DNA of 64,000 bases from Ectopseudomonas khazarica (GTDB lineage Bacteria; Pseudomonadota; Gammaproteobacteria; Pseudomonadales; Pseudomonadaceae): contig NZ_SBHZ01000006.1 of the NCBI RefSeq assembly GCF_004521985.1, positions 1-64,000 of the forward strand, read 5' to 3'. Numbering within the stretch: position 1 is the first letter of the stretch; the number at the start of each line of letters is the position of its first letter. The notes below the pieces were generated by a model that saw only the letters and a list, made by a program, of their open reading frames with translations, made no database searches and was not told the origin of the DNA. Both the position numbers and the translations under genes were made by a program. Shown here piece after piece: positions 46,836 through 52,521 of the stretch.

Positions 46836-46969
46836 GGCTTCGGCACGCACTGTCGCGCCGGGTCCCGCTGCGGCCCGCTCGCCAGTGCGTGAGCAGGTTG
46901 CGCCCTGGCCGGTGCAACTTCTGGCGACAGTGGACGTCGTATCGTTCCCATGCAGTCGAGTAGTCGCCG

Positions 46970-47896
46970 ATGTCCTCATCCTTCCCGCGTATTCGCCGCC
47001 AGGGCCTTTGCCTGGCGGCCCTGGCGTTCGTGGCGCTAGGCGCTCTGGTACTCACCCAGCATTGGGATGATCGTGCCCGGCTCTGGCTGCAGGAGCGCTC
47101 CACGCCCCTGGTCGATCGCCTGGCCAGCGTGTGGCTGCCGGGCTACCGCGCGGTGATCCAGGCCAAGGCCCTGAGCGGCCTGGACAAGGATGAGACCTCC
47201 GGGCTGACCTACAACCCGGTGACCAGGACCCTGTTCACCGTCACGGGCAAGCATCCCCTGCTGGTGGAGCTGTCGCTCCAGGGCGAGATTCTGCGGCGCA
47301 TCGAGCTGAAAGGCTTCGCCAACCCGGAAGGCGTCGAGGTGATGGACAACGGCCTGATGGGCATCGTCGACGAACGTCGCCGCCAGCTCACCACCTTCAC
47401 CCTGAAGGACGATGATCTGGCGCTCGATGCCGCCGGTCTTGCCGGCTTCGACCTGGGCTTCGCCGATGCCGGCAACAAGGGCTTCGAAGGGCTGGGCTGG
47501 GATTCGCGCAGCCACAGCGTGATCCTGGGCAAGGAGCGTGGGCCGCTGGGCCTGTTCAGCCTGCCGTTCCCGGGCGAGGACGGCAGCGTCGGGGCGCTGC
47601 AGCCCCTGGCGGCGCAACATCTCGGGTTGCGCGACATCTCCTCGCTGAGCGTCGACGGGCGTACCGGCCACCTGCTGGTGCTGTCCGACGAGTCGCGCAT
47701 GCTGCTGGAAGTGGATCGTGCCGGCAGGCCGGTCAGCTTTCTCAGCCTCAATGGCGGTCTCAACGGGCTGGAGGACGGGATCGAGCAGGCCGAGGGCGTG
47801 GCCATGGACGAGGACGGCAACATCTATATCGTCGCCGAACCCAACCTGTTCTACGTGTTCAGCAAGCCCGTCGCGAAGGTTGGCCGAGCGGGGTGA
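46970..47896 (+). CDS. SdiA-regulated (CarP-like) beta-propeller protein 1
   Basis: A 308-residue protein with an N-terminal membrane anchor (about residues 11-30) and an extracytoplasmic SdiA-regulated domain predicted to be a beta-propeller, shown by repeated blades such as ETSGLTYNPVTRTLFTVTGK, GNKGFEGLGWD and GIEQAEGVAMDEDGNIYIVAEPNLFYVF. The related P. aeruginosa protein CarP (PA0327) takes part in calcium homeostasis. It is paralogous to the gene at 48407, and the two flank the carO-like gene. Confidence 0.82.
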   Translation: MSSSFPRIRRQGLCLAALAFVALGALVLTQHWDDRARLWLQERSTPLVDRLASVWLPGYRAVIQAKALSGLDKDETSGLTYNPVTRTLFTVTGKHPLLVELSLQGEILRRIELKGFANPEGVEVMDNGLMGIVDERRRQLTTFTLKDDDLALDAAGLAGFDLGFADAGNKGFEGLGWDSRSHSVILGKERGPLGLFSLPFPGEDGSVGALQPLAAQHLGLRDISSLSVDGRTGHLLVLSDESRMLLEVDRAGRPVSFLSLNGGLNGLEDGIEQAEGVAMDEDGNIYIVAEPNLFYVFSKPVAKVGRAG

Positions 47897-47900
47897 CGGA

Positions 47901-47938
47901 TTAAGCTTGGCTTAAGCGCCGATTCAGTCTGGCTTCAG
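47901..47938 (+). promoter_or_regulatory. Four phased TTAAG/TTCAG repeats upstream of carO (BqsR/CarR-type box)
   Basis: TTAAG occurs at 47901 and 47912, and TTCAG at 47923 and 47934; every pair is separated by exactly 6 bases, an 11-base period. The first pair matches the TTAAG-N6-TTAAG motif described for the P. aeruginosa response regulator BqsR (CarR). The last repeat ends 10 bases before a possible -10 TAATCT (47949-47954), the usual position of an activating OmpR-family dimer. Confidence 0.8.
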
Positions 47939-47988
47939 CTAGCGGCACTAATCTGACCCCGTCACTTACGAACAACGAGGTTCACGCC

Positions 47989-48336
47989 ATGAAACGTACC
48001 GCTCTCGCCCTGCTGGTCCTGCCGCTGCTCAGCACTGCCGCTTTCGCCACCGGCTACACCGGCCCCGGCGCCACGCCGCAGGTCACCACCGTATCCGCCG
48101 CGCTGCAGGCTGCCGACGATACCCAGGTGGTGCTGGAAGGGCAGATCGTCAAGCGCCTGCAGGACGAACTCTATGAATTCAAGGACGCCACCGGCACCAT
48201 TCAGGTCGAGATCGACGACGAAGACTGGCCGGCCCAGAAGGTCTCGGAAACCGCCAAGGTGCGCCTGACCGGTGAAGTCGACAAGGACTTCAACAGCCGT
48301 GAGATCGACGTCGACCGGGTCGAGCTGATCAACTGA
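47989..48336 (+). CDS. carO: CarO-like periplasmic OB-fold (BOF) protein
   Basis: A 115-residue exported protein: signal peptide MKRTALALLVLPLLSTAAFA, then a single OB-fold of the YgiW/YdeI (BOF) stress-protein family, with VSAALQAADDTQVVLEGQIVKRL, GTIQVEIDDEDWPAQ and VRLTGEVDKDFNSREIDVDRVEL. P. aeruginosa CarO (PA0320) belongs to this family and is induced by calcium through CarSR/BqsSR; the phased TTMAG repeats just upstream here fit such control. A terminator follows it closely, so it is mainly a single-gene unit. Confidence 0.78.
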   Translation: MKRTALALLVLPLLSTAAFATGYTGPGATPQVTTVSAALQAADDTQVVLEGQIVKRLQDELYEFKDATGTIQVEIDDEDWPAQKVSETAKVRLTGEVDKDFNSREIDVDRVELIN

Positions 48337-48352
48337 TCGTGATGTTATGCAT

Positions 48353-48383
48353 GCCCGCCGCAGCAACGCTGTGGCGGGCTTTT
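48353..48383 (+). terminator. Terminator after carO
   Basis: A 12-bp stem with one G-U pair (arms 48353-48364 and 48368-48379), a 3-base loop and four T residues. It lies upstream of the next gene's chosen start at 48407. Confidence 0.85.
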
Positions 48384-48406
48384 CCGTGGTCGTAAGAGAA
48401 ACCGCC

Positions 48407-49321
48407 ATGCGCCGTCTGCTTTCCATCAACCCCTGGCTCTACCTGCTGCTGTTCGTCCTGCTGGGCGGTGCCGTGCTGGCCCAGCAGTACCGGCTGTTCG
48501 AGCGCGCCTGGTTCTCGGTGCAGGAATGGCAGCATGGCGCGCAGTGGCGCGAGCAGTCGTTGTGGCTCGGCGACTACCGGGTGGTGATCGAGGCCAGGCC
48601 CATCGCCGATATCCGCGACGTTTCGGCACTGACCTACGATCCGGACCGGCGCAGTCTGTTCAGCGTCACCAACAAGCCGGCCAGGGTGATCGAGCTGAAC
48701 CTGCAGGGCGAGCTCCTGCGCACGATCGATCTGCAGGGGTTCGGCGATCCCGAGGCCATCGAGTACGTGGGACCTGGCACCTACGTGATCGCCGACGAGC
48801 GCGAGCAGCGTCTGGTCAAGGTGCGGATCGACGATGACACCGCGGTGCTCGACGCCGCCGACTTCCAGCAGCTGTCACTGGGCATCGGGCGCAACGGCAA
48901 CAAGGGCTTCGAGGGACTGGCCTACGACGCGCAGGGCCAGCGTTTGCTGGTGGCCAAGGAGCGTGACCCGGTGCGGATCTTCGAAGTGCTGGGTTTCCCG
49001 CACATCGACGAGAGCAAGCCGCTGGCGTTGCAGGTCAACACCGACCCGAAACGCGACGCGCGCCTGTTCGTCCGTGACCTGTCGAGCCTGGATTTCGATT
49101 CGGCCACCGGCCACCTGCTGGCCTTGTCCGACGAATCGCGGCTGGTGATCGAACTGAATGCGGCAGGTGAGCCGGTCAGCACCCTGTCGCTGCTGCGCGG
49201 CCAGCATGGCCTGCAGCACGGCGTACCGCAGGCCGAGGGCATCGCTTCGGACCAGGCGGGCAATCTCTACCTGATCAGCGAGCCCAATCTCTTCTACCTG
49301 TTCAGGAAACCGGCAGACTAG
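48407..49321 (+). CDS. SdiA-regulated (CarP-like) beta-propeller protein 2
   Basis: A 304-residue paralogue of the protein at 46970, with a membrane anchor (MRRLLSINPWLYLLLFVLLG) and propeller blades including DVSALTYDPDRRSLFSVTNK, GNKGFEGLAYDAQGQRLLVAKERDP and PQAEGIASDQAGNLYLISEPNLFYLF. The start at 48407 is preferred because an upstream in-frame ATG lies before the carO terminator. Its TAG overlaps the stop codon of the converging YegP-like gene (CTAG). Confidence 0.83.
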   Translation: MRRLLSINPWLYLLLFVLLGGAVLAQQYRLFERAWFSVQEWQHGAQWREQSLWLGDYRVVIEARPIADIRDVSALTYDPDRRSLFSVTNKPARVIELNLQGELLRTIDLQGFGDPEAIEYVGPGTYVIADEREQRLVKVRIDDDTAVLDAADFQQLSLGIGRNGNKGFEGLAYDAQGQRLLVAKERDPVRIFEVLGFPHIDESKPLALQVNTDPKRDARLFVRDLSSLDFDSATGHLLALSDESRLVIELNAAGEPVSTLSLLRGQHGLQHGVPQAEGIASDQAGNLYLISEPNLFYLFRKPAD

Positions 49322-49653
49322 GCGCTCTGGTCGTCCGTCTCGGCGCCGGGTGCGTTGTTCTGCACGGACTCGATGCCGCCTTTGCAGGCCGAGGCGCTGC
49401 TGTACATCTGGCTTTGCCCGACGACCTGGCCGTTGGTGGCCTTGAGCACGAAATAGTGTTTGTCGTTACTCGAGATCTTGGTCTCGAACGCCCCTTCGCG
49501 CTGGGCATTCTTCTTGACCGAGTCGATGCCGTTGAGTGCCGAGTCCTTGGCCTTGTACATCTCGCTGCTGAGAATGACCTGGCCATTGCCGGCCAGCAGA
49601 TTGAAATAGAACTGGCCGTCTTTGGCCTTCTTCAGTTCGAACTTTCCAGACAT
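49318..49653 (-). CDS. YegP family protein, tandem DUF1508 repeats
   Basis: A 111-residue protein made of two DUF1508 units of about 48 residues: FELKKAKDGQFYFNLLAGNGQVILSSEMY and FETKISSNDKHYFVLKATNGQVVGQSQMY, each followed by a Gly-Ile-(Asp/Glu)-Ser-Val helix. YegP-type proteins are small and cytoplasmic with unclear function. The start at 49653 follows AGAGGAAG. Its stop overlaps the preceding convergent gene. Confidence 0.9.
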   Translation of the reverse strand: MSGKFELKKAKDGQFYFNLLAGNGQVILSSEMYKAKDSALNGIDSVKKNAQREGAFETKISSNDKHYFVLKATNGQVVGQSQMYSSASACKGGIESVQNNAPGAETDDQSA

Positions 49654-49759: not shown

Positions 49760-50212
49760 TCAGTGCGAGTGGCTCTTGCCTACGTGGGTGTGGCCGTCAT
49801 CCGGCAGCGGCTGCACGCCGCCGCTGGCGTTGAGCTGGCGCAGGATGCCGCAGTCCTCGGCCTCCTGCGGGCCGTTGCAGCGGTCACGCAGCTCGCTCAA
49901 CTGGTCGCGCAACGCGAGCAGGCTGTTGATGCGCGCTTCCACGTGCTCGATGTGTTCGTCCACCAGGCTGTTGATGCCGGCGCAGCTCTCGTGGGGCAGG
50001 TCGCGCAGGGACAGCAGGCGCTGGATCTCGTCCAGCGTCATGTCCAGCGTACGGCAGTTGCGGATGAACACCAGGCGCTCGAGGTGCTCGCTGCCGTACA
50101 GGCGATAGTTGCCTTCGCTCCGCGCGGGTGCCGGCAACAGGCCCTCGCGCTCGTAGTAGCGGACCGTCTCGACCTGGCAGCCAGCCTTCTTCGCCAATTC
50201 GCCAATCTTCAT
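49760..50212 (-). CDS. cadR: MerR-family Cd(II)/Pb(II)-responsive regulator CadR
   Basis: A 150-residue MerR-type regulator with an N-terminal winged helix-turn-helix (KIGELAKKAGCQVETVRYYEREGLLP) and a dimerisation helix. Metal-binding Cys77 (HESCAG) and Cys112 (RCNGP), with Cys121 (EDCG), correspond to the CadR/PbrR thiolate site. A His-rich tail (DGHTHVGKSHSH) resembles the second site of P. putida CadR. It is divergent from the cadA gene, whose promoter has the over-long spacer this family untwists. Confidence 0.93.
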   Translation of the reverse strand: MKIGELAKKAGCQVETVRYYEREGLLPAPARSEGNYRLYGSEHLERLVFIRNCRTLDMTLDEIQRLLSLRDLPHESCAGINSLVDEHIEHVEARINSLLALRDQLSELRDRCNGPQEAEDCGILRQLNASGGVQPLPDDGHTHVGKSHSH

Positions 50213-50232
50213 GCGCAAGCCTCCTTTGGGGG

Positions 50233-50263
50233 TTGACCCTATAGTGACTACAGGGTGTGTACT
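50233..50263 (+). promoter_or_regulatory. cadA promoter with 19-bp spacer and CadR operator
   Basis: TTGACC (50233-50238) and TGTACT (50258-50263) are separated by 19 bases. Within the spacer, ACCCTATAGT and ACTACAGGGT (50236-50245, 50247-50256) form an inverted repeat with one mismatch, the classical MerR-family operator. Confidence 0.93.
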
Positions 50264-50292
50264 CGGCAACACTCACTTGAAGGAGAGTTGCC

Positions 50293-52521
50293 ATGAGTCG
50301 TTGTTGCGACCATTCGCCCGAACCGTCACCCGTTCGTCATGAGCACGGCCACGATCACGATCATGCCGGGCATGAGCACGGCGCCGCGCAGTCGTCGTTC
50401 GCCGACGAGCCGCTGACCGGGGCGGTCAATACGCGTATCCGCATCGAGCAGATGGATTGCCCCACGGAAGAACGCCTGATCCGCGATGCGCTGGGGCGTC
50501 TGCCCGGTGTGGCGGGGCTGCAGTTCAACCTGCTGCAGCGGGTGCTGACCGTCAGCCATGACGACGGTGCGCTGGCCCAGGTGTTGCCGGCCATTCGCGG
50601 CCTGGGCTTCACCCCGCAGCTGGAACAGGACGATGCCGCGCAGGCAGCGGCCGCCGAGCCCGTGAAGAAGTCCGCCTGGCCGCTGCTGCTGGCTGCTGTC
50701 GCGGCGACCGCCTCGGAGGGGGTGCACTTCGCGACGCTGGGGCCTGACTGGCTGGTGGCGCTGCTGGCCATCACCGCCATCGGCCTGTGTGGCCTGACCA
50801 CCTACAAGAAGGGCTGGATCGCCCTGAAGAACCGCAACCTCAACATCAATGCGCTGATGAGCATCGCCGTGACCGGTGCGGTGCTCATCGGTCAGTGGCC
50901 CGAGGCGGCGATGGTGATGGTGCTGTTCACCCTGGCCGAGCTGATCGAGGCGCGCTCGCTGGACCGGGCGCGCAATGCCATTCGCGGGCTGATGGACCTG
51001 GCCCCGCCGCGCGCCACGGTCAGGCAGGCCGACGGCAGCTGGCAGGAGGTGGACGTGCAGGGCATCACCGTGGATGCGCTGGTGCGCGTGCGCCCCGGCG
51101 AGCGCATCAGCCTCGACGGCGAGGTCGTTGGCGGCAGCTCGACGGTCAACCAGGCGCCGATCACCGGAGAAAGCCTGCCGGTTGAGAAGCGCGTGGGCGA
51201 TCCGCTGTTCGCTGGCACCATCAACGAAGCCGGTTCGCTGGAGTTCCGCGTAACGGCGGCGGCGCGCGATACCACGCTGGCGCGCATCATCCATGCGGTG
51301 GAGGAGGCACAAGGCTCGCGTGCACCGACCCAGCGCTTCGTCGACCAGTTCTCGCGCATCTACACCCCGGCGGTCTTCGCCTTCGCCCTGGCGGTCGCGG
51401 TGCTGCCGCCGCTGGTCATCGGCGGCGCCTGGCTCGACTGGATCTACCGCGCCCTGGTGTTGCTGGTGGTGGCTTGCCCCTGTGCACTGGTGATCTCCAC
51501 TCCGGTGACCATCGTCAGTGGCCTGGCCGCCGCCGCGCGCAAGGGCATCCTGGTCAAGGGTGGCGTGTACCTGGAGAACGGCCGTCATCTGGCCATGCTG
51601 GCGCTGGACAAGACCGGCACCCTGACCCACGGCAAGCCGGTGCAGACCGACAGCCTCCACTTGCTGGAGGCGGAGCAGCCGCTGCACGCCGTGTGGGCGG
51701 CGAGCCTGGCCGCACGTTCCGATCACCCGGTGTCACGGGCGCTGGCCCTGCATGCCGAGGAGCAGGGGCGGGTGCTGCGCGAGGTCGAGGCGTTCGCGGC
51801 ACTGCCGGGGCGGGGCACCCAGGGGGTGGTCGACGGTACCCTGCTGTACCTGGGCAATCACCGTCTGGTCGAAGACCTCGGGCTCTGCTCGGCGCAGCTG
51901 GAAGAGCGCCTGGAAACCCTGGAACGGCAGGGCAAGAGCGTGGTGGTGCTGTGCGACGAGCAGCGCGCGCTGATGCTCTTCGCCGTGGCCGATACGGTGC
52001 GCCAGAGCAGCCGCGAGGCGGTCGGTGAATTGCACGAACTGGGCGTGCGTACCTGCATGCTCACCGGCGACAACGCCCACACGGCCGCCGCCATCGCCGA
52101 GCAGGTCGGTGTCGATGAGGCGCGTGGCGACCTGCTGCCGGCGGACAAGCTGGCCTGGGTCGAGGCGCGGCAGGCGCAGGGCAAGGTGGTCGGCATGGTC
52201 GGCGACGGCATCAACGACGCACCGGCGCTGGCCAGGGCGGAGATTGGCTTCGCCATGGGCGCCGCCGGAACCGATACCGCCATCGAGACGGCGGATGTCG
52301 CCCTGATGGACGACGATCTGCGCAAGATTCCCGCATTCGTCCGCCTGTCGCGGCAGACTCACGCGATCCTGCTGCAGAACATCGTGCTGGCGCTGGGGAT
52401 CAAGGCGGTCTTCCTGGGCATGACCTTGGCGGGCGAGGCGACCATGTGGATGGCGGTGTTCGCCGACATGGGGGTGAGCCTGATGGTGGTGTTCAACGGC
52501 CTGCGCCTGCTGCGCAAATGA
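50293..52521 (+). CDS. cadA: Cd(II)/Zn(II)/Pb(II)-exporting P1B-type ATPase CadA
   Basis: A 742-residue heavy-metal ATPase in the inner membrane. A His-rich N-terminus (HEHGHDHDHAGHEHG) precedes an HMA domain in which the usual CxxC is replaced by MDCPTEE. The membrane metal site is CPC (395-397), the phosphorylated Asp is 439 in DKTGT, and the hinge is MVGDGINDAPALA. The CPC motif and CadR regulation point to export of Cd, Zn or Pb from the cytoplasm. The DUF3703 gene follows after 11 bases. Confidence 0.95.
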   Translation: MSRCCDHSPEPSPVRHEHGHDHDHAGHEHGAAQSSFADEPLTGAVNTRIRIEQMDCPTEERLIRDALGRLPGVAGLQFNLLQRVLTVSHDDGALAQVLPAIRGLGFTPQLEQDDAAQAAAAEPVKKSAWPLLLAAVAATASEGVHFATLGPDWLVALLAITAIGLCGLTTYKKGWIALKNRNLNINALMSIAVTGAVLIGQWPEAAMVMVLFTLAELIEARSLDRARNAIRGLMDLAPPRATVRQADGSWQEVDVQGITVDALVRVRPGERISLDGEVVGGSSTVNQAPITGESLPVEKRVGDPLFAGTINEAGSLEFRVTAAARDTTLARIIHAVEEAQGSRAPTQRFVDQFSRIYTPAVFAFALAVAVLPPLVIGGAWLDWIYRALVLLVVACPCALVISTPVTIVSGLAAAARKGILVKGGVYLENGRHLAMLALDKTGTLTHGKPVQTDSLHLLEAEQPLHAVWAASLAARSDHPVSRALALHAEEQGRVLREVEAFAALPGRGTQGVVDGTLLYLGNHRLVEDLGLCSAQLEERLETLERQGKSVVVLCDEQRALMLFAVADTVRQSSREAVGELHELGVRTCMLTGDNAHTAAAIAEQVGVDEARGDLLPADKLAWVEARQAQGKVVGMVGDGINDAPALARAEIGFAMGAAGTDTAIETADVALMDDDLRKIPAFVRLSRQTHAILLQNIVLALGIKAVFLGMTLAGEATMWMAVFADMGVSLMVVFNGLRLLRK

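Follow-up and report, generated by a model that had tools for sequence, protein, structure and literature searches.

Four TTMAG pentamers lie directly upstream of carO in the window, the 64,000-nucleotide stretch of Ectopseudomonas khazarica DNA analyzed here, and they very likely constitute a double operator for CarR (also called BqsR), a metal-responsive regulator of the OmpR family, and form an activator-dependent carO promoter. We observed the array, its geometry, its conservation, the gene for the regulator, and a site of the same kind upstream of the operon that encodes it. Novelty does not lie in the array, since a quadruple array before carO has already been published for P. aeruginosa; what this analysis adds is a spacer pattern with two 22-bp operators and, in the sensor CarS, D, Q, and G at residues 45, 48, and 49.

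The array and promoter upstream of carO

As seen in Table 1, the array spans 38 bp with a pentamer period of exactly 11 bp, and it ends 10 nt before a −10-like hexamer, confirming the four repeats described in an earlier note on this DNA. The spacers are, in order, CTTGGC, CGCCGA, and TCTGGC, and the bases preceding pentamers 1 to 4 are A, C, A, and C. That note had also identified the first pair as a BqsR/CarR motif, and the pair is indeed a perfect match to the published motif, TTAAG-N6-TTAAG (PMC4682146); pentamers 3 and 4, both TTCAG, carry one mismatch each, a point that weighs against CarR.

Table 1. Features of the carO region, in window coordinates
Feature	Position	Strand	Basis
Upstream gene, SdiA-regulated domain	46970..47896	+	PF06977; stop codon 4 bp before array
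Pentamer 1, TTAAG	47901-47905	+	Window sequence
Pentamer 2, TTAAG	47912-47916	+	Window sequence
Pentamer 3, TTCAG	47923-47927	+	Window sequence
Pentamer 4, TTCAG	47934-47938	+	Window sequence
Predicted distal CarR operator, pentamers 1+2 (TTAAG-CTTGGC-TTAAG), predicted auxiliary	47901..47916	+	Sequence; 35/63 carO loci; additive in PA14 (PMC4682146)
Predicted proximal CarR operator, pentamers 3+4 (TTCAG-TCTGGC-TTCAG), predicted essential	47923..47938	+	Sequence; perfect in 62/63 loci; critical in PA14
Predicted −10 element TAATCT, 10 nt past pentamer 4	47949..47954	+	TAnnnT at exactly 10 nt in 63/63 loci
carO, 115-aa BOF/OB-fold periplasmic protein	47989..48336	+	PF04076, E 1.2e-31; NF033674; YgiW structure 1nnx
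Terminator-like hairpin 3' of carO	48353..48379	+	1 found vs 1.5 expected in shuffles, weak by itself
Downstream paralogous gene, SdiA-regulated domain	48407..49321	+	PF06977 (query from 48404); ATG read from sequence

The window contains three TTMAG-N6-TTMAG pairs, all in the carO array, against 0.09 expected, and none of 100 dinucleotide shuffles of the window reached this number. A search of the whole genome for the repeats, which had been proposed earlier, singled out carO by the exact TTMAG triple, found only in this array (two overlapping matches; control, 0). It did not do so by single pairs, of which there were 18 (3 in the array) versus 10 for the reversed control pattern, indicating that these are largely noise. 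A consensus sigma-70 promoter was also sought across positions 46900 to 49600, and none was found. The carO promoter has a −10-like TAnnnT and no good −35, an arrangement suggestive of an activator-dependent promoter.

The carO reading frame, starting with the ATG at 47989, lies between two genes for SdiA-regulated-domain proteins, all on the same strand, and its product matches NF033674, a stress-tolerance OB-fold family. We use the name carO on the basis of the protein family and the published orthologue, not of an alignment to the P. aeruginosa protein. That orthologue, PA14_04180, is an OB-fold protein under CarSR/BqsSR regulation (PMC8120321) and is listed as carO (PMC7179292). Farther downstream, at 49760-52521, the ORF translations, inspected by eye, show a gene for a MerR-type regulator that diverges from one for a heavy-metal P-type ATPase.

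Conservation of the array and its apparent 22-bp unit

To the 18 loci examined we added 47 loci of 46 genomes, leaving out G051, whose CarO match has 28% identity. Two of these 65 loci (L055 and L056), from Gastranaerophilales, have no array, and the carO counts refer to the other 63, all from Pseudomonas. Many of these represent closely related species, and some of the genomes may be duplicates of one another; the distinct sequences number 26 with four sites and 22 with the proximal pair alone. Four perfect TTMAG pentamers occur in 33 loci, and another 2 have four pentamers of which the distal pair carries one or two mismatches; 27 loci have the proximal pair only, and the last one lacks the distal pair and has an imperfect proximal pair. 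The proximal pair is thus perfect in 62/63 loci, and the distal pair is present in 35 and absent in 28, while TAnnnT stands exactly 10 nt past the proximal pair in all 63. The repeats are therefore conserved before carO orthologues, as the proposal in the earlier note called for, and a multi-site CarR promoter appears to be an architecture conserved across the genus sample. On the CarO tree, from which L087 to L103 are missing (upstream stretches only), the presence of the distal pair is explained by one change, in either direction (46 rows; support, 99).

Of the 48 distinct sequences, 47 have TTCAG as pentamer 4. Pentamer 1 is TTCAG in all 11 loci with a CarO identity of at least 87% (L039 to L043 and L058 to L063) and TTAAG in the window; the window's first pentamer, which makes its first pair perfect, appears to be unusual in the group of this species. 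We also observed that one genome (G027) carries two carO copies (L070 and L087), both four-site, one of them with TTAAG at all four sites. In several relatives, the longest open frame upstream of carO terminates at the TAA within pentamer 1 (e.g., L050, L053, and L067 to L069; position +4) or reads through the distal operator and terminates within pentamer 3 (e.g., L048, L049, and L064; position +26).

Next, the spacers of the 26 distinct four-site arrays were compared with each other. Spacer 1-2 (consensus YTTGGC) and spacer 3-4 (CCTGGC) have a mean identity of 64%, versus 24% and 36% in the comparisons with the middle spacer, values that are descriptive because the sequences are related and not independent. 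The bases before pentamers 1 to 4 are mostly A/G, C, A/T, and C in the same arrays. Since spacer 1-2 is like spacer 3-4 and unlike the middle one, the array appears to repeat as an operator of 22 bp, a unit that would fit dimers on pentamers 1+2 and 3+4.

Comparison with the published promoter and proposed mechanism

The published PA14_04180 promoter has four pentamers, of which 3 and 4 are critical and 1 and 2 additive, and pentamer 4 overlaps the −35 (PMC4682146). According to the same source, spacers of 5 or 7 bp in the BqsR motif reduce expression to less than 10%, and PA14 arrays have up to five pentamers, when at most two pentamer mutations per operator are allowed. In addition, carO is under positive, Ca2+-dependent control by CarSR (PMC11559002). 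The window anatomy corresponds to the orthologue of this promoter, matched by its published description and not base by base, and the pentamer requirement and additivity are taken from the work of others in P. aeruginosa. The two promoters precede genes that are orthologous as judged from the published name and the family, and they share four pentamers, 6-bp spacers, and CarR/BqsR as the regulator. They differ in the species, in pentamers 3 and 4, both TTCAG in the window, and in CarS residues 45, 48, and 49.

In the mechanism that we propose, pentamers 3+4 would be occupied head-to-tail by a CarR dimer, which, at 10 nt from the −10 element, would stand in for the missing −35 and recruit RNA polymerase, and a second dimer on pentamers 1+2 would add to the output. 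We infer from the features described here that CarR binds the array and activates carO in this species. The earlier note had envisaged cooperative binding of two dimers, a strong distal and a weaker proximal site, and possibly threshold induction. Two operators are in agreement with the spacer pattern, which fits pentamers 1+2 and 3+4; cooperativity and a threshold are not supported, the published effect being additive (PMC4682146). The suggested order of strength is contradicted both by the PA14 results and by conservation, as it is the proximal pair that is nearly always perfect and the distal pair that is often absent.

The CarR regulator and its own operon

The genome has 20 Trans_reg_C matches. 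One of these regulators, encoded on contig C66, matches the CarR receiver domain in the PDB (8gc6; E 2.8e-69), with 12 differences in 122 residues, or about 90% identity as counted from the alignment, and also the structure of the DNA-binding domain of CarR (9yfa; E 1.2e-47). By sequence, this gene encodes the CarR/BqsR orthologue of the genome, the homologue whose presence the earlier note had presupposed. Two PepSY genes precede CarR in its operon and a sensor kinase gene follows; the bqsPQRS operon of P. aeruginosa is PA2656-PA2659 (PMC12666569). The site before the CarR operon in this genome reads TTCAG-CTTGAA-TTAAG, 10 nt, TAGAGT, and a TTMAG pair followed after 10 nt by TAnnnT was found before the operon in 30/30 loci, the 30 most similar to this CarR.

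Only 3 of the 18 TTMAG pairs of the genome fit the CarR geometry, namely, those of carO, the CarR operon, and L007. The last (TTCAGCTTCACTTAAG, 10 nt, TATCGT; G000:C22:142752-142767; L007:1501-1516) precedes a SulP-like transporter gene and was dropped from the CarR regulon, being found in 1 of 16 orthologous loci, that of this genome only. As this site is unconserved, the geometry rule is no proof of function. Full-length CarR (at least 77% identity) is present in 144/149 genus genomes; it is partial in G076, and G060, G093, G123, and G138 have only weaker regulators. CarO matches were obtained in 47/149 genus genomes, none of them among the latter four, and all 47 have CarR (46 full-length and one partial). 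Given that CarR is present in 144 of the 149 genomes, this co-occurrence carries little weight.

Other regulators with similar repeats

PhoP and probably PmrA recognize similar repeats, which counts against the CarR reading. The TTMAG triple pattern occurs in 117/149 genus genomes, and among 30 loci with this pattern, an all-TTCAG array with a PhoP-like regulator nearby accounts for 26, carO for 2, and other genes for 2; the labels PhoP and oprH are our own assignments, made in part from the sequences. Arrays before oprH-phoP-like Pseudomonas operons resemble that of carO in having four pentamers, an 11-bp period, and an OmpR-family regulator. This genome encodes a PhoP-like regulator (82% identity) whose gene has its own array, TTCAG/TTCAA/TTCAG/TTCAG in 11-bp units (L001, about 1467-1516; G000:C11), and oprH is among the BqsR-linked promoters (PMC4682146), so cross-regulation exists. 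However, the PhoP arrays are all TTCAG, G precedes 92 of the 98 PhoP-type pentamers of the 26 loci (a rule derived from these same loci), and TAnnnT stands 11 nt downstream in 26/26, as opposed to 10 nt in all 63 carO arrays. The window array, with A, C, A, and C before its pentamers and 10 nt to TAnnnT, is of the carO type in both respects; the genome's own phoP array, without TAnnnT at 11 nt, is an exception to the spacing rule. It is thus very unlikely that the carO array is bound mainly by PhoP or by PhoP and CarR both. The tandem pho boxes of PhoB, with direct half-sites, an 11-bp period, and a box end about 10 bp above the −10, also have a related layout and differ from the carO array in half-site sequence and regulator.

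Another PmrA/QseB-type regulator as the main activator of carO is likewise improbable, although the repeat TTAAG-N6-TTAAG also resembles the PmrA box, and a PmrA/QseB box and a CarR site at carO are inseparable by sequence alone. The E. coli ygiW promoter (TTAAG-AAGTTG-TTAAG, 10 nt, TTAAAT) is similar to that of carO in its BOF gene, its repeat, and the 10 nt to a −10-like hexamer, and differs in having a single pair and QseB/PreA as the regulator. PreA/QseB activates ygiW in Salmonella, where the mapped start lies 161 bp ahead of the start codon (PMC2653508), a misfit with the TTAAAT hexamer, and the V. cholerae homologue is controlled by the two-component system VC1638-39 (PMC5636140). This genome also has a regulator gene (L010) with its own TTAAG-N6-TTAAG upstream, but TAnnnT is absent at 10 nt from it. 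Against such an activator, carO is a published CarR/BqsR target (PMC4682146; PMC11559002), and the exact carO layout is repeated before the CarR operon. We also considered, and rejected, the idea that TTMAG pairs and BOF genes share a deep link. BOF genes were found in 9/274 class genomes, and among the 8 other than that of the window there was one near-match, with a relaxed pattern (L170, TTAAG-N6-TTAAT); the TTMAG pair was absent from the remaining 7 and from E. coli ydeI. Outside ygiW-like genes, such a link is therefore not a general one.

The repeats could also have arisen by chance or be nonregulatory, given that single TTMAG pairs occur in the genome at a frequency that makes them largely noise. 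Nevertheless, about 1e-7 four-site arrays are expected per window (from the window TTMAG frequency, with pentamers treated as independent), and the pentamers and the 10-nt spacing are conserved in 63 loci, leaving this explanation with almost no probability. The carO array is real and conserved, and it is probably a functional CarR double operator.

The signal read by CarS

In the periplasmic segment of P. aeruginosa BqsS, the E48A substitution abolishes Fe2+ binding, and E45A, E48A, and N49A each abolish Fe2+ stimulation; stimulation by Ca2+ was reported not to occur (PMC12666569). The wild-type stretch, taken from the primers printed there, is L-R44-E-E-A-E48-N. The CarS of this genome (L104, G000:C66) reads L-R-D-E-A-Q-G, that is, D45, Q48, and G49 versus E45, E48, and N49, in a numbering in which a TTG start sets the Arg as residue 44; two later start codons are possible and would remove most of the membrane segment. 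We examined 48 kinases, from 28 of the 30 CarR loci (no kinase was found in two) plus 20 that were chosen. Residue 48 is Glu in 32 and Gln in 16, E48 occurs together with N49 in 21, and the combination of E45, E48, and N49 was found in none of the 48. The distribution of Q48 does not cleanly track the four-site/two-site division.

Since the Fe(II)-site residues differ, Fe(II) sensing by this CarS is doubtful, and so is, for this species, the ferrous-iron responsiveness assumed in the earlier note. The Gln or neighboring acids might still bind Fe(II); nevertheless, we infer that the signal read by this CarS need not be Fe(II). One tentative possibility is that the output of CarSR, meaning the geometry of the operators before carO and before its own operon, was kept across Pseudomonas while the input drifted, the CarS of the window's group having no Fe(II) ligand Glu48 and no coupling Asn49. 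The same operators would then report another signal, such as Ca2+ or envelope stress via another component, or Fe(II) would be sensed by other residues.

Implications

Motif scans would confuse CarR and PhoP sites, and the base before the pentamer, the distance of 10 versus 11 nt to the −10, and the spacer pattern are candidate rules that may separate them. The multi-site CarR promoter, known from one species, extends across the genus sample. The residue change in CarS bears on the unsettled roles of Fe(II) and Ca2+ in CarSR and poses a testable question, namely, whether Fe(II) is a signal for CarSR in those species in which the reported Fe(II) ligand is missing from CarS.
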